A stretch of DNA of 64,000 bases from Hydrogenobacter sp. (GTDB lineage Bacteria > Aquificota > Aquificia > Aquificales > Aquificaceae): contig JAPYWJ010000002.1 in NCBI GenBank assembly GCA_028276405.1, forward strand, positions 1 through 64,000, read 5' to 3'. The notes beneath the pieces are model-generated. The model did no database searches and was not told the DNA's origin. It saw only the letters and a list, made by a program, of their open reading frames with translations. The position numbers were made by a program, and so were the translations under genes. Numbering within the stretch: the stretch's first letter is position 1; the number at the start of each line of letters is the position of its first letter. Of the stretch, positions 5,806-21,469 are shown piece after piece.

Positions 5806-6662
5806 AACAAGCCTTCCTCCTTAACTCTGTTTATTACTTCTTCTGCTTGTGGTGTCATGTATTCAAAGAAAGAGAACCTTTCCTTGTCCCTTGCTCTCAT
5901 TTCGTCTAGTCCATCGTCAGAATTTAGACCTATCTCAAGTATGCAGGGAGTATAAAGGTGCACATAAGTAGGTCCCACTTCCCTTGCCACATATATAGCT
6001 TTCTTTATAACCTGTTCCACCTTTTTAGGAGATGATACTGTAAGCCTTGCTACATAATGACATCCTGAGTCTATGGCTATCTGCCAGAAGGGCACTTTGT
6101 CCCACTGCTTTCCTTTGGGAGCCATTTTAAACACATGTCCTTTGACGGTCAAGCCACTTTCCTGTCCACCTGTGTTAGCGTAAACCTCGTTATCAAAGCA
6201 TATGGTTGTTATTTTTTCTTGCCTAAAGAAGGACTGGAGAGTACAGTCAAGACCTATATCCACCGTAGCACCATCACCTGCGAGAACTACCACATCTTTG
6301 ACCTTATCTGGAAAGCGCCACTCAAGAACCCTTTTTATACCAGATGCTACAGCGTTTTGGTTTCCAAATAAGGAGTGAACCGTATGAAGCGCTATATGAG
6401 GAAAGACCAAGGAGGTGCATCCCGTGGAGTTAACTATTATGGTATCCTCAGGATTAGGTAAGGATGCGAGGATGTATCTTAGTGCCATAGACTCGGGACA
6501 TCCGGCACAAAGGGAATGCTCTTCTATAAGCTCCTTAGTATAGGGCAGATCCATGACACCCCTTTTTGGATTTCCCCAGGTTGCTCTCTCTTCAAGGTCT
6601 ATTATCTCCTTAGGCATAAACTCCTTTAGGTCTTCGTTGATGTCATATATCTTATATGACAT
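5802..6662 (-). CDS. porB: pyruvate:ferredoxin oxidoreductase, beta subunit (TPP-binding)
   Basis: The 286-residue thiamine-diphosphate subunit of POR. Seen: LCAGCPE with Cys52 and Cys55 (iron-sulfur ligands in this family), GCTS at 81-84, the TPP/Mg motif GDGATVDIG (129-137) and NEVYANTGGQESG (158-170). The start overlaps the end of porA by 11 bases. The gene order E-D-A-B-G is that reported for POR of Hydrogenobacter thermophilus; its 2-oxoglutarate counterpart ends with E, which is why I prefer pyruvate as the substrate. Confidence 0.92.
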   Translation of the reverse strand: MSYKIYDINEDLKEFMPKEIIDLEERATWGNPKRGVMDLPYTKELIEEHSLCAGCPESMALRYILASLPNPEDTIIVNSTGCTSLVFPHIALHTVHSLFGNQNAVASGIKRVLEWRFPDKVKDVVVLAGDGATVDIGLDCTLQSFFRQEKITTICFDNEVYANTGGQESGLTVKGHVFKMAPKGKQWDKVPFWQIAIDSGCHYVARLTVSSPKKVEQVIKKAIYVAREVGPTYVHLYTPCILEIGLNSDDGLDEMRARDKERFSFFEYMTPQAEEVINRVKEEGLL

Positions 6663-18452: not shown

Positions 18453-18481
18453 AGTATATGTTATACACCCCCATTTGTCAA
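18453..18481 (-). promoter_or_regulatory. rseP promoter (near-consensus, probably leaderless)
   Basis: On the minus strand TTGACA (18476-18481), a 17-base spacer and TATACT (18453-18458) stand eight bases before the rseP ATG. This is the best sigma-70-type promoter in the window. Transcription would begin at or next to the start codon. Confidence 0.65.
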
Positions 18482-18502
18482 AGATCTAAGCTAAGATATA
18501 TT
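18475..18502 (+). promoter_or_regulatory. promoter of the coiled-coil gene cluster
   Basis: TTGTCA (18475-18480), a 16-base spacer and TATATT (18497-18502) stand seven bases before the ATG at 18510. Its -35 hexamer lies on the same bases as the -35 of the divergent rseP promoter, shifted by one. Confidence 0.55.
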
Positions 18503-18509
18503 TAACGCT

Positions 18510-18728
18510 ATGGAATGGATACAAGCTCTTACAGTAATAGCCAGTCTCACAGCAGTCATAGGTATAGTAACTAATCTCCTAAACAAACGCATAGATGACC
18601 TTAGGCAGGATGTGGATAGGAGATTCAGTGAGATGGACAGGAGGCTTGACAGGATAGAACAAGACATAAGAGAGATAAGACAGCTTCTATACAAAGCCTT
18701 TGAGCTTCCTCACAGGGAGGACAAGTAA
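18510..18728 (+). CDS. small membrane-anchored coiled-coil protein, copy 1
   Basis: A 72-residue protein of unknown function. Residues 1-24 form a hydrophobic anchor (ALTVIASLTAVIGIVTNLL), followed by a highly charged helix with heptad pattern (RIDDLRQDVDRR, MDRRLDRIEQDIREIRQLL) and a short tail (ELPHREDK). It is the first of three tandem copies; the first 41 bases are identical to those of copy 2, so duplication is recent or maintained by conversion. Its TAA is followed directly by the ATG of copy 2. Likely a homo- or hetero-oligomer at the membrane. Confidence 0.75.
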   Translation: MEWIQALTVIASLTAVIGIVTNLLNKRIDDLRQDVDRRFSEMDRRLDRIEQDIREIRQLLYKAFELPHREDK

Positions 18729-19019
18729 ATGGAATGGATACAAGCTCTTACAGTAATAGCCAGTCTCACGGGAGTTTTGGGCATAGTGGCTAACCTTTTG
18801 AGCAAGCGCATAGAAGACACAAACAGGCGCATTGAAGACACAAACAAACGCATAGAAGACACAAACAAGCGTATTGAAGACACAAACAAGCGTATTGAAG
18901 ACACAAACAGGCGCATAGATGACCTAAGGGAAGACATGAGGGAAATAAGACAGGAGTTAAGAGAGATAAGACAGCTTCTATACAAAGTTTTTGAGGTACC
19001 TCACAAGGAGGACAAGTAA
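18729..19019 (+). CDS. small membrane-anchored coiled-coil protein, copy 2, with heptad repeats
   Basis: A 96-residue paralogue of its neighbours. The hydrophobic anchor (1-24) is followed by five perfect heptads of the type RIEDTN(K/R) encoded by a 21-bp tandem repeat, then RIDDLREDMREIRQELREIRQLLYKVFEVPHKEDK-like C-terminus. The extra heptads explain why it is 24 residues longer than copy 1. Copy number of the repeat could vary by slippage, changing rod length by about 1 nm per heptad. Function unknown. It starts and stops flush with its neighbours. Confidence 0.75.
   Translation: MEWIQALTVIASLTGVLGIVANLLSKRIEDTNRRIEDTNKRIEDTNKRIEDTNKRIEDTNRRIDDLREDMREIRQELREIRQLLYKVFEVPHKEDK
18807..18911 (+). 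repeat. five-copy 21-bp tandem repeat encoding a coiled-coil heptad
   Basis: Five units of CGY ATW GAA GAC ACA AAC ARR in frame. Units differ only at silent or Lys/Arg third-position sites, so the protein repeat is exact while the DNA has begun to diverge. Confidence 0.9.
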
Positions 19020-19250
19020 ATGGAGTGGGTGCAAGTTATTACCATCATAGCGAGCATAATAGGTGGCAATGTGGTAATAATGGGCATAATCACAAACGTG
19101 CAAAATAAACGCTTTGACGACATAAACAAACGCATAGATGACCTTAGGCAGGATGTGGACAGGAGACTGGATAGACTTGAGCAGGACATAAGAGAGATAA
19201 GACAACTTCTATACAAAGTTTTTGAGGTGCCTCACAAGGAAGATAAGTGA
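19020..19250 (+). CDS. small membrane-anchored coiled-coil protein, copy 3
   Basis: A 76-residue paralogue. The N-terminal anchor is longer and more diverged (VITIIASIIGGNVVIMGIIT), while the coiled coil (KRIDDLRQDVDRRLDRLEQ) and tail (LLYKVFEVPHKEDK) match copies 1 and 2. The conserved tail suggests a shared binding partner; the variable anchor suggests different membrane neighbours. Its TGA stop lies within the first copy of a 13-bp direct repeat that recurs upstream of the pilin gene. Function unknown. Confidence 0.72.
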   Translation: MEWVQVITIIASIIGGNVVIMGIITNVQNKRFDDINKRIDDLRQDVDRRLDRLEQDIREIRQLLYKVFEVPHKEDK

Positions 19251-19259
19251 AATTTTCGT
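19247..19259 (+). repeat. 13-bp direct repeat, left copy
   Basis: GTGAAATTTTCGT followed by an A-rich run; identical to the copy at 20513-20525. The two copies bracket the endonuclease remnant and methyltransferase. The stretch 19260-19340 between this copy and the remnant holds no other recognisable feature. Confidence 0.7.
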
Positions 19260-19340
19260 AAAAAATTGAGGCTGTTTCAAATGTGCCAAGGTATTAAGAA
19301 AAAAAACGACAAAATAGCAAGACAGAACTAAGGTTTTATA

Positions 19341-19727
19341 ATGTGCATTATGGCAAATCCAAATCTAAAACATAGCATTGAGCTGTATTCAACAGAAAGT
19401 CTTGAAAAGCTTATCCAATTTCTAAACGGGCTTTCCAAGCCATCCTTAATATCCCTTTGCATAGACCTTCTTACCCTTTACTTTAATGACAAAAACTCAT
19501 CAAGGCTCAGAGAACTAACCACTTTGTGGATGTGTGGCTTTCAGCCAAACACGGAAAAACTCGGATACAACGGTTATAGAATGGATGTGGATACGGGAAA
19601 AAGAATTGATTGTGAAGTGAAGCCTCAAAATACTGATGACCCTAAGAAAAAACTAAACGGCGGTGGGAGTTTTAACGATGGGGATGAACAGTTTAGAAAA
19701 GTTTATCAACCAAGTTATATGTGGTGA
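19341..19727 (+). pseudogene. remnant of a type II restriction endonuclease (probable)
   Basis: An open frame of 128 codons without a clear match to a complete enzyme. Residues 1-75 look like a helical N-terminal region. Then YRMDVDTGKRIDCEVKPQN (about 78-96) has the D...ExK spacing of a PD-(D/E)xK nuclease core. It is followed by LNGGGSFND, after which the frame runs into the 5' end of the methyltransferase in another frame and stops. Restriction enzymes of this fold are usually 200 residues or more, so the C-terminal half appears to be deleted. AAGG seven bases before the ATG would still allow translation. The nuclease identity is inferred from the motif and from the adjacent methyltransferase. 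Confidence 0.5.
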
Positions 19728-20487
19728 TGCTCTGGAAATTTTAAGGGAAATGCCCGATGAAAGTATAGATTTGGGTATCACCTCTCCACCATACAACAAA
19801 AAAGAAAAGCACGGTGGGTGGTTGGTGGATAAAGTCCGATACAAGGGCTACAGGGATGTTATGCCAGAGGAGGAGTATCAAAGCTGGCAGGTGGAAGTTT
19901 TAAACGAACTCTACAGAGTGATAAAGGAAGGAGGCTCCTTTTTCTACAATCACAAAGTGCGCTACGAAGACGGAAAAATGATCCATCCCTTACAGTGGCT
20001 ACTTAAAACCAAGTGGAATATATGGCAAGAGATCATTTGGAACAGAAAAATTGCGGGCAACATAAGAGGATGGAGGTTTTGGCAGGTGGAGGAAAGAATT
20101 TACTGGCTTGTGAAAGGAAAGCCAAGGGAGTTAAAGCCCAAGCACGCTAAATTGACATCCATATGGGGGATCCGCCCAGAGCAAGGACACAAAGAGCATC
20201 CCGCAGTATTTCCCATAGAACTTCCCACACGGATCATAGCAAGCTTGCTGGAGGAAGAGGATGGCATTGTTATAGACCCTTTTTGTGGAACTGGAACCAC
20301 CTTGGTAGCTTCAGAGCTTTTGGGAAAGAAGTATATAGGTATAGACATTTCAAAAGAGTATGTTGAATACACCAAGAAAAGGCTTGAAAGGGCACAGAAG
20401 GAAAAAATGAGAGTTTCAAAAGAGTTAGCCTTGCACAGCGTGGAGCTAACCTTCAAAGAAAGAAAAGAGAGGGGTTTTTGGAAATAG
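19678..20487 (+). CDS. DNA methyltransferase, beta class (N4-cytosine or N6-adenine)
   Basis: A 269-residue amino-methyltransferase with motif order IV then I: catalytic TSPPY (35-39) near the N-terminus and the AdoMet-binding PFCGTGTTLVASELLGKKYIG at about 201-221 (given here as landmarks). That order defines the beta class; SPPY often goes with N4-cytosine but N6-adenine cannot be excluded. The ATG at 19678 has GGGAG eight bases upstream, inside the end of the endonuclease remnant. With the cognate nuclease apparently broken it would be a solitary methylase protecting DNA or regulating genes. Confidence 0.88.
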   Translation: MGMNSLEKFINQVICGDALEILREMPDESIDLGITSPPYNKKEKHGGWLVDKVRYKGYRDVMPEEEYQSWQVEVLNELYRVIKEGGSFFYNHKVRYEDGKMIHPLQWLLKTKWNIWQEIIWNRKIAGNIRGWRFWQVEERIYWLVKGKPRELKPKHAKLTSIWGIRPEQGHKEHPAVFPIELPTRIIASLLEEEDGIVIDPFCGTGTTLVASELLGKKYIGIDISKEYVEYTKKRLERAQKEKMRVSKELALHSVELTFKERKERGFWK

Positions 20488-20512
20488 CCCGCTCAAGCCT
20501 TCCTGTAAGAAT

Positions 20513-20525
20513 GTGAAATTTTCGT
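20513..20525 (+). repeat. 13-bp direct repeat, right copy
   Basis: GTGAAATTTTCGT followed by GAAAAAA; identical over 13 bases to 19247-19259 and then similar. It lies just upstream of the candidate pilin promoter. Confidence 0.7.
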
Positions 20526-20533
20526 GAAAAAAC

Positions 20534-20561
20534 TTGCCGTACACAAAACCTCGCTTAAATT
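20534..20561 (+). promoter_or_regulatory. candidate promoter of the pilin gene
   Basis: TTGCCG (20534-20539), 16 bases, TAAATT (20556-20561). The pilin ATG is 31 bases further on with AAGGAGG before it. Each box matches consensus at four of six positions, so this is tentative. A sigma-54 site was considered and not supported. Confidence 0.35.
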
Positions 20562-20592
20562 AAAATTAAAACCTTTAAAGGAGGGTTTAGCC

Positions 20593-21036
20593 ATGAGACA
20601 GCTCTATCAAGCAACGAGCAGGTCCACAAGACTTGCAGGCTCAAAGGGTTTTACCCTGATTGAGCTACTCATCGTCATAGCCATCATAGCCATACTGGCA
20701 TCCCTGGCAATACCTCAGTACCTAAAGTACCAAAGGAAAGCCAAGGTAAGCTCCTACGCGGAACCCATAGCCAGAGGTTGTATGCTGGACATAGTGGCCT
20801 TCTGCACTGAAAACCCTGGTGCCTCGGTAACAACCGCAAGCTTAGCTAACTGCTCCCTTACTACTGTTAGCACTGCTGGAGGACCAGTTACTCTGAGTGC
20901 TAACGGTGGAACTTGCCAATCTGATGGTCAAGCGGACACCAACGCTTCTGCTACCGCTACCCTTTCTGGCGTGACTGACTACACTGCAGTTTGCAACTAC
21001 AGCAACCAGAGCATCAAGTGTACTATACAGGGTTAA
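20593..21036 (+). CDS. pilA: major type IV-like prepilin
   Basis: A 147-residue prepilin. A 19-residue leader ends in Gly at the cleavage site, then [22 protein letters not shown] with Glu at +5, the hallmark of type IV pilins. The head domain carries six cysteines (C-x7-C near 62-70, two central, C-x8-C near the end) and a middle rich in Ser, Thr, Ala and Gly (from [15 protein letters not shown] to NASATATLS) that would suit O-glycosylation. AAGGAGG before the ATG at 20593 fixes the start; the frame upstream is not pilin-like. A terminator-like hairpin follows, so it is probably expressed above the genes behind it. Confidence 0.9.
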
Positions 21037-21048
21037 TCTAAGCTGAGC

Positions 21049-21070
21049 GCCCCCTTGCCGGGGGGCTTTT
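21049..21070 (+). terminator. hairpin between the two pilin genes, terminator or attenuator
   Basis: GCCCCC (21049-21054), loop TTGCCG, GGGGGC (21061-21066), then TTTT. The run of G in the 3' arm lies about seven bases before the ATG at 21074 and is the only Shine-Dalgarno-like sequence for the second pilin, so the hairpin may limit both transcription and translation. Confidence 0.65.
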
Positions 21071-21073
21071 GCC

Positions 21074-21469
21074 ATGAAAAAAGGCTTTACTCTTGTAGAG
21101 CTTCTGATGGTTATAGCTCTTTTGGTTATACTGGCTTCTATGGCTCTCCCTTCTTATCTTATGTATCGCGACAAATCCAAGGTGAGCAACTTTGCGCTTT
21201 CTATAGCTTCAGCGTGTGCCAAAGATGCCATGGCAGATTGTGTGTCAAGGTTTGTGGATGCACCAACTGTTTACAACCTAAGTGCTCTTCCTAACTGTTC
21301 AAGGGTCAACACCGCTATGGGTAATGTTGAGGTTTTGCTTGATGGAAGCTACACATGCACGCCAAGTGGTATAGCAAGTGGTACTGTAAAAGGCATGCTT
21401 GCAGGAATAAACAACTACACCGCTGTGTGTGAGTTTTTGGAAAACAGCCTGAGGTGTAGCGTTAAGTGA
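21074..21469 (+). CDS. second prepilin-like protein
   Basis: A 131-residue pilin paralogue with a very short leader (MKKG) and FTLVELLMVIALLVILASMALPSYLMYR. It shares the six-cysteine pattern of the first pilin, including C-x7-C and the C-terminal C-x8-C, but is poorer in Thr and Ser. It may be a minor pilin. The stop codon overlaps the GTG of the GT-C gene by four bases, tying pilin and glycosylation genes into one transcript. Confidence 0.88.
   Translation: MKKGFTLVELLMVIALLVILASMALPSYLMYRDKSKVSNFALSIASACAKDAMADCVSRFVDAPTVYNLSALPNCSRVNTAMGNVEVLLDGSYTCTPSGIASGTVKGMLAGINNYTAVCEFLENSLRCSVK

Follow-up and report, generated by a model that had tools for sequence, protein, structure and literature searches.

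Tandem arrays of small, predicted membrane coiled-coil genes in Aquificaceae carry the Shine-Dalgarno site of the next copy within conserved tail codons

The Bdr proteins of Borrelia are small paralogous proteins with variable direct repeats, charged and probably helical, and with one membrane helix at the C-terminus. Judged by description, the family presented here resembles them in consisting of paralogous small proteins with variable charged repeats and one membrane helix, and differs in the N-terminal position of the anchor and in its repeat units; we know of no tail-coded ribosome site in Bdr genes. A similar layout, a hydrophobic N-terminus and then a coiled coil, is found in DUF2730, DUF948, phrog_1009 and Rz-like proteins, although the Pfam scores of our proteins against the two DUF families stay under the cut-offs. 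As for expression, Zheng 2011 (PMC3160421), with Aquifex aeolicus among the four figured genomes, describes leaderless proximal genes that have a TA box some 12 nt upstream of the start, only the operon-proximal gene being leaderless and the distal genes led by a Shine-Dalgarno (SD) site. Coupling by termination-reinitiation has been measured at a 4-nt overlap or distance 0, and coupled gene pairs often encode subunits of one heteromeric complex, as stated in Huber 2023 (PMC10666635).

In this work, we are analysing an array of three genes in a stretch of 64,000 nucleotides of Hydrogenobacter sp. DNA (contig JAPYWJ010000002.1), called the window below; L and G numbers denote loci and genomes of our collection. 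The array occupies 18510-19250 of the plus strand as three flush open reading frames, each ATG standing directly after the preceding stop codon. Copy 1 (18510..18728, +; 72 aa) is composed of a short N-terminus, one predicted membrane helix, a coiled-coil rod and the tail LLYKAFELPHREDK; copy 2 (18729..19019, +; 96 aa) has the anchor start of copy 1 and a 21-bp repeat in its rod; copy 3 (19020..19250, +; 76 aa), the last of the array, retains the tail HKEDK. The initial annotation described three flush paralogues with a common anchor and tail. They are indeed flush, but only copies 2 and 3 have the tail LLYKVFEVPHKEDK exactly, and the anchor sequence of copy 3 differs (61% identity to copy 1 over the whole protein). 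Two further details of that description proved exact: the first 41 bases, and no more, are identical in copies 1 and 2, and the rod of copy 2 is coded by a 21-bp tandem repeat (18803..18923, +; 5.8 copies with 88% matches in TRF, the stronger of the two TRF rows of the window), which gives heptads [KR]RIEDTN and reads in frame KRIEDTN, RRIEDTN, three times KRIEDTN and RRIDDLR. Variation of the rod by whole heptads, which had been suggested from copy 2 alone, is seen between related genomes, since this rod exceeds those of the corresponding 75-aa copies in G025 and G028, its most similar-looking counterparts, by 21 residues, that is by exactly three heptads. As a family hallmark we used the N-terminal membrane helix followed by NKR[IF] together with L[LI]Y[KR] near the C-terminus; both marks are exact in copies 1 and 3, and copy 2 has SKRI. 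No further family copy was found at E<=1 in the genome of the window (1.36 Mb, 55 contigs).

The initial annotation proposed a search for the tail motif in other Aquificales, and the family does recur, almost exclusively in Aquificaceae, with a helical tail part like EIRQLLYKVLEVP present also in lone copies. Using genome sets with one genome per species, family matches at E<=0.01, some of them weak, were obtained in 37 of the 64 Aquificaceae genomes, while the profile of A1, a 19-member alignment, found matches at E<=1e-6 in 34 of the 121 phylum genomes sampled, 32 of these being Aquificaceae and the other two having weak matches in the rod only. With copy 3 as query, the genome collection yielded four loci, two of them in Aquificaceae bins, one in a Hydrogenobacter bin and one in a bin labelled Nitrospirae JdFR-85. 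No family match was obtained in complete relatives, for example G029, G032 and G050. Members occur as single genes or as arrays of two to six at many unrelated loci with differing neighbours; a conserved gene neighbourhood was considered as a general key and rejected, as neighbours vary between loci. The array is more than a chance arrangement because the family recurs in other genomes, because non-synonymous change is far rarer than synonymous and because the G025 and G028 copies are shorter by exactly three heptads; we regard its genes as real and under selection.

That the family is without known identity, as initially stated, agrees with our searches of Pfam, NCBIfam, PHROGs and PADLOC, none of which gave a named match beyond similarity of the coiled-coil type. 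Pfam and NCBIfam made no assignment above the curated cut-off for the three proteins, copy 2 staying below the Pfam gathering cut-offs of DUF2730 (PF10805; 18.2 against 24.9 bits) and DUF948 (PF06103; 22.2 against 37.2 bits). PHROG matches are to families of lysis proteins or of unknown function and are strongest for the repeat-rich copy 2; phrog_1009 (function unknown), aligned from residue 2 on and so covering also the anchor, matches copy 2 at E 1.1e-9 and copy 3 at E 1.4e-5, and is not among the 19 PHROG families shown as matches of copy 1. The PDB, searched by sequence, gave a single weak match, 2yny_A (E 0.0018), covering its first 31 residues, and neither copy 3 in the phage collection nor copy 1 in the plasmid collection found a match at E 0.01. 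No paper recognised in our literature search describes this Aquificaceae coiled-coil family, and the main text of PMC4227106, on Aquificales genomes, does not contain the word 'coiled'.

The sites from which copies 2 and 3 may be translated lie inside the preceding genes: GGGAGG for copy 2 (18715..18720, +) within the tail codons of copy 1, and AAGGAGG for copy 3 (19005..19011, +) within the tail codons of copy 2 (HKED). When lenient 5-mers are counted, and with the reservation that members share ancestry, so that this and the other family counts are not numbers of independent events, an SD word stands within the final codons of the preceding copy (mostly HKE[DE]K) for 19/19 distinct closely following copies, in the arrangement CACAAGGAGGACAAG-stop-ATG or near it and at a spacing of 0 or -4 nt in 18 of them; stricter words are present in 19 of 20 internal tails, the tail before L045:7494, AAGAAGGAC, failing them. 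Loci L001-L034 were excluded from the upstream, tail and rod tests as repeats of the window or of loci re-fetched with longer flanks or re-found. Codon choice follows the same line. The tail Glu codon is GAG in 18 of 18 internal copies, in 8 of 12 others (one of which, L054:7253, is a neighbouring Glu) and, for comparison, in 178 of 352 Glu codons of the rods; among VPH-type tails the SD site is found in 14 of 15 internal copies versus 7 of 24 others. The last copy is without SD words in five of the seven flush arrays with a complete last copy (the window, L038, L042, L043 and L045), those of L039 and L048 retaining them. In the window the loss is synonymous, HKEDK of copy 3 being spelled AAGGAAGAT, and in the other four it goes with amino-acid changes, with HKEDK turned into QKGEK, HKGEK, HKQE or QKEGK. 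Some lone copies nevertheless retain HKEDK, and L041, L060 (as QKEDK) and L064 have the SD site though no copy follows, from which some protein-level role or inertia of the tail end is to be assumed.

Because every closely following copy has its SD word there and final copies have often lost it, the constant tail ends in what is, at least in part, a ribosome-binding site that is translated. The constant tail had been read initially as a sign of one common partner; its last residues do not serve as such evidence, as they encode the SD site of the next copy and are often changed in final copies. We consider this tail-coded design of expression to be the firmest new point of the study. It offers a clean case of a conserved C-terminal peptide being in part a ribosome-binding site in disguise, and a caution against reading short conserved tails as binding motifs. 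Copies 2 and 3 would then be translated by coupling through these sites. The arrays share the range of spacings with the coupled pairs of Huber 2023 (PMC10666635) and differ from them in that the partners are tandem paralogues distinguished mainly by rod length.

Copy 1 is preceded by a promoter-like site (18475..18502, +), read by sequence as TTGTCA, 16 nt and TATATT, the last starting 13 nt upstream of the ATG. A TATAWT-like box (at least 5/6) was found at -14..-11 in 41 of 49 first, lone or widely spaced members, the box being exact in 31, compared with a mean of 5.2 and a maximum of 12 of 49 in shuffled upstream regions; duplicates were dropped, as were members whose upstream sequence was shorter than 70 nt, and the class also takes in later copies separated by over 10 nt from the preceding one. 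Control genes of the same loci, whose starts were taken as the longest frame, which somewhat lowers their rate, have the box in 42 of 251 cases (genes of at least 150 aa), in 19 of 110 (ATG start, over 40 nt upstream) and in 14 of 55 (same, with the neighbour on the other strand). As 17-25% of control genes thus have a box at such a distance, it is an enrichment across the family and no unique mark. The eight members without the box comprise three with doubtful starts (L040, L054:7153, L063), three with leaders (L045, L048, L050), and L068 and L076. A conserved -35 box is not significantly enriched across the family (18 of 49; shuffle mean 12.9, maximum 21). SD 5-mers precede just 4 of the 49. 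By box and SD counts together, lone and widely spaced copies look leaderless, and copy 1 is probably translated from a leaderless mRNA. In the position of the box and in the leaderless proximal gene the family matches the pattern of Zheng 2011 (PMC3160421); it departs from that pattern in that the SD site is embedded in conserved codons of a paralogue's tail, each gene of an array carrying the signal of the next. The four SD-led first copies (L045, L048, L050, L052) all stand beside pilus genes, as if absorbed into longer pilus transcripts.

Residues around the anchor are charged unequally: the six residues after the anchor contain 1.97 Lys and Arg on average and the first six of the protein 0.17, with the higher count after the anchor in 67 of 69 members, so that the rod is predicted, from charges, to lie on the cytoplasmic side. 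The NKR-to-LLY distance ranges over 27-88 residues and falls, modulo 7, into classes 6, 2 and 3 in 31, 19 and 11 of 66 distinct members, five lying elsewhere (of 71 distinct proteins, five had been set aside because one of the two marks was missing). Rod length therefore changes in steps of 7 or of 3-4 in 61/66, by which the tail stays on one helix face. This phase lock was judged only against other periods (R is 0.49 for period 4, and 0.71, 0.80 and 0.75 for 3.5, 3.6 and 3.667), and it means that the helix face of the tail is constrained, saying nothing of a measured distance. Of 18 pairs compared, 14 give a dN/dS of 0.01-0.35, dS being infinite in the other four and above 1 in several of the 14; the family is under purifying selection. 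The pattern R-h-x-x-h-E is a motif of coiled-coil trimers. It occurs in 39 of 65 rods, compared with a mean of 16.8 and a maximum of 25 after shuffling of residues within heptad positions, and the rod is probably a parallel, trimeric coiled coil. AlphaFold2 modelled copy 3 alone as one helix (2-68, mean pLDDT 90.5) with a loose tail, a lone-helix model that tells little about assembly.

By DNA of anchor and tail, the nearest relative is in the same locus for 26 of 40 copies of multi-copy loci, and copies 2 and 4 of L045 encode an identical protein. Two adjacent copies of L038 (7538-7963) have ends 99% identical in DNA and different rods (75 and 65 aa), which suggests constant ends with exchangeable rods; gene conversion of the ends or rod exchange may be read from this pair. 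Copy number beside the two pilin genes is four in G025, one in G026, where the copy is without a clear ATG start, and three in G028. These naturally occurring arrays allow array size and rod length to be studied jointly with translational coupling.

Two prepilin-like genes (N_methyl; 20524..21469, +) lie downstream in the window, separated from the array by a probably inserted DNA-methyltransferase module; their counterparts in G025, G026 and G028, three sister genomes of the same genus, come directly after the array. Over 50 family loci in 31 genomes, nine have a pilin (N_methyl) or PilY1 gene no more than 2 kb away, with 0.55 expected, and after collapsing orthologous near loci, the others being left uncollapsed, 4 of 45 remain, with 0.47 expected (P about 1e-3); this value is a guide only, because the hypothesis was formed after seeing the neighbourhoods. 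The loci were merged by hand from the Aquificaceae and phylum searches, leaving out as partial or generic the matches of G001, G003 and G059, G035:C1:1146666, G036:C1:431116 and G042:C66, as well as rows weaker than about 1e-7 in both searches; most genome sizes were rounded, the extent of PilY1 in G054 was estimated, and pilins on another contig could not count as near. Proximity concerns 7 of 16 multi-copy loci versus 2 of 34 single-copy loci. Four independent contexts are represented: the pilin pair of the window; a secretin-array-pilins order in L045 and L050, the array beginning about 28 nt past the secretin gene; divergent pilins in L048; and PilY1 downstream in L042 and L052. Array and pilus genes share the strand in three of the four. 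Labels of PilN and PilO, given by eye to genes before the secretin, were not borne out by Pfam. A core component of the type IV pilus was rejected as an identity for the family: pilin matches are present in 25 of the 27 genomes that lack a family match, and G027 retains the same pilin locus with the array absent and other genes upstream, so the family would be at most accessory. The pilus is the best functional lead, and the chance of such a role is perhaps one in three; the family is in any case a candidate, open to test, for an accessory of the type IV pili of deep-branching thermophiles.

Taking the family, the array, the phase lock, purifying selection, the position of the -10 box, the tail-coded SD sites and the proximity of pilus genes as they stand in the sequence, we infer leaderless transcription, coupling, topology, the trimer and the pilus role, and we propose a model that, as a whole, we rate a little short of evenly probable: a tail-coupled tandem array of membrane coiled-coil adaptors or spacers, with the type IV pilus as the most likely machine in several lineages. 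The N-terminal helix would anchor the protein in the membrane, and a parallel, probably trimeric rod would extend in the cytoplasm, closed by the tail on a fixed helix face. Copy 1 would probably be translated from a leaderless mRNA and copies 2 and 3 by coupling through SD sites in the tail codons of the copy before. As each gene carries the start signal for any next copy, tandem duplication or unequal exchange yields translatable arrays, and from arrays grown in this way rods of different length would be made together. They would most likely serve envelope machines as adaptors or spacers on the cytoplasmic side, in homo- or hetero-trimeric form. In several lineages this machine would most likely be the type IV pilus, many multi-copy arrays being found next to pilus genes. 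A stronger form, in which an array-growing family produces from one coupled run graded hetero-trimeric rods tuning the cytoplasmic face of the pilus, with array size and rod length co-evolving by slippage and unequal exchange, we consider rather unlikely.

The tail can also be viewed as the initial annotation viewed it, with rods acting as length-graded spacers whose constant tail binds a common partner, held at a membrane distance that differs between the rods. Retention of the helical part EIRQLLYKVLEVP in lone copies, rod lengths of 27-88 residues that leave the tail on one face of the helix, and purifying selection would all fit; yet 34 of 50 loci are single-copy and thus have no local set of distances, and the SD site explains at least part of the tail's end, so that a measured distance is possible but unneeded to explain that end, and the reading as a whole seems to us improbable. 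A reading in which the coiled-coil family is generic, tethered to the membrane and unrelated to pili, and lies near their genes because these are hotspots of insertion and array growth, is quite conceivable, if still short of likely. It would suit the 41 of 50 loci that lie elsewhere than within 2 kb of pilin or PilY1 genes, the promoter-like box that dispersed single copies have of their own and the pilin locus of G027 without an array, and it sits less well with four different pilus contexts where 0.47 were expected (a post hoc count), with the common strand in three of them and with leader-type first copies all being beside pilus genes.

An array of phage-lysis type (Rz spanin or holin) or of small membrane toxins is suggested by the profile similarity to Rz-like spanins and to phrog_1009, in which the anchor is covered as well. 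In Rz-like i-spanins the rod is periplasmic and positive charges precede the membrane helix. Here the Lys and Arg counts given above have the opposite order, placing the rod, by prediction, in the cytoplasm; neighbouring genes read as chromosomal, and the phage (copy 3) and plasmid (copy 1) searches at E 0.01 were empty, all of which leaves this explanation very improbable. Low-complexity open frames without function, to which the simple heptad composition and the lack of matches in the complete relatives could point, are practically negligible as an explanation in view of dN/dS far below 1, phase-locked lengths and conserved start signals. Among all these readings we retain the tail-coupled array of membrane adaptors or spacers.

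Several observations were made around the family members. The DNA methyltransferase gene (PF01555) between array and pilins lies at 19663-20487, and a 128-aa frame upstream of it (19341-19727) matches phrog_3210 at E 1.7e-6 and contains IDCEVKPQ, which by eye resembles a PD-(D/E)xK nuclease core. The module (19247-20531) is bordered by a 19-nt direct repeat with one mismatch (19247-19265 and 20513-20531) and is not at the corresponding place in G025, G026 and G028; it is probably an insertion in the lineage of the window and possibly a restriction-modification remnant. In L047 the genes around a family member (6225-6464) look by eye like a nuo (complex I) operon, and the end of this member overlaps the frame that follows. 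L053, L054 and L075 hold a divergent long-rod subfamily, with frames reaching 139 aa and 57-75 nt gaps, near a gene pair labelled by eye as MNT/HEPN-like. Short frames next to the lone members of L058, L061 and L064 have a common sequence of the SQPHTVGLK / FNPTVWGCD type, as if a repeat element or a CRISPR-like repeat adjoined the gene.
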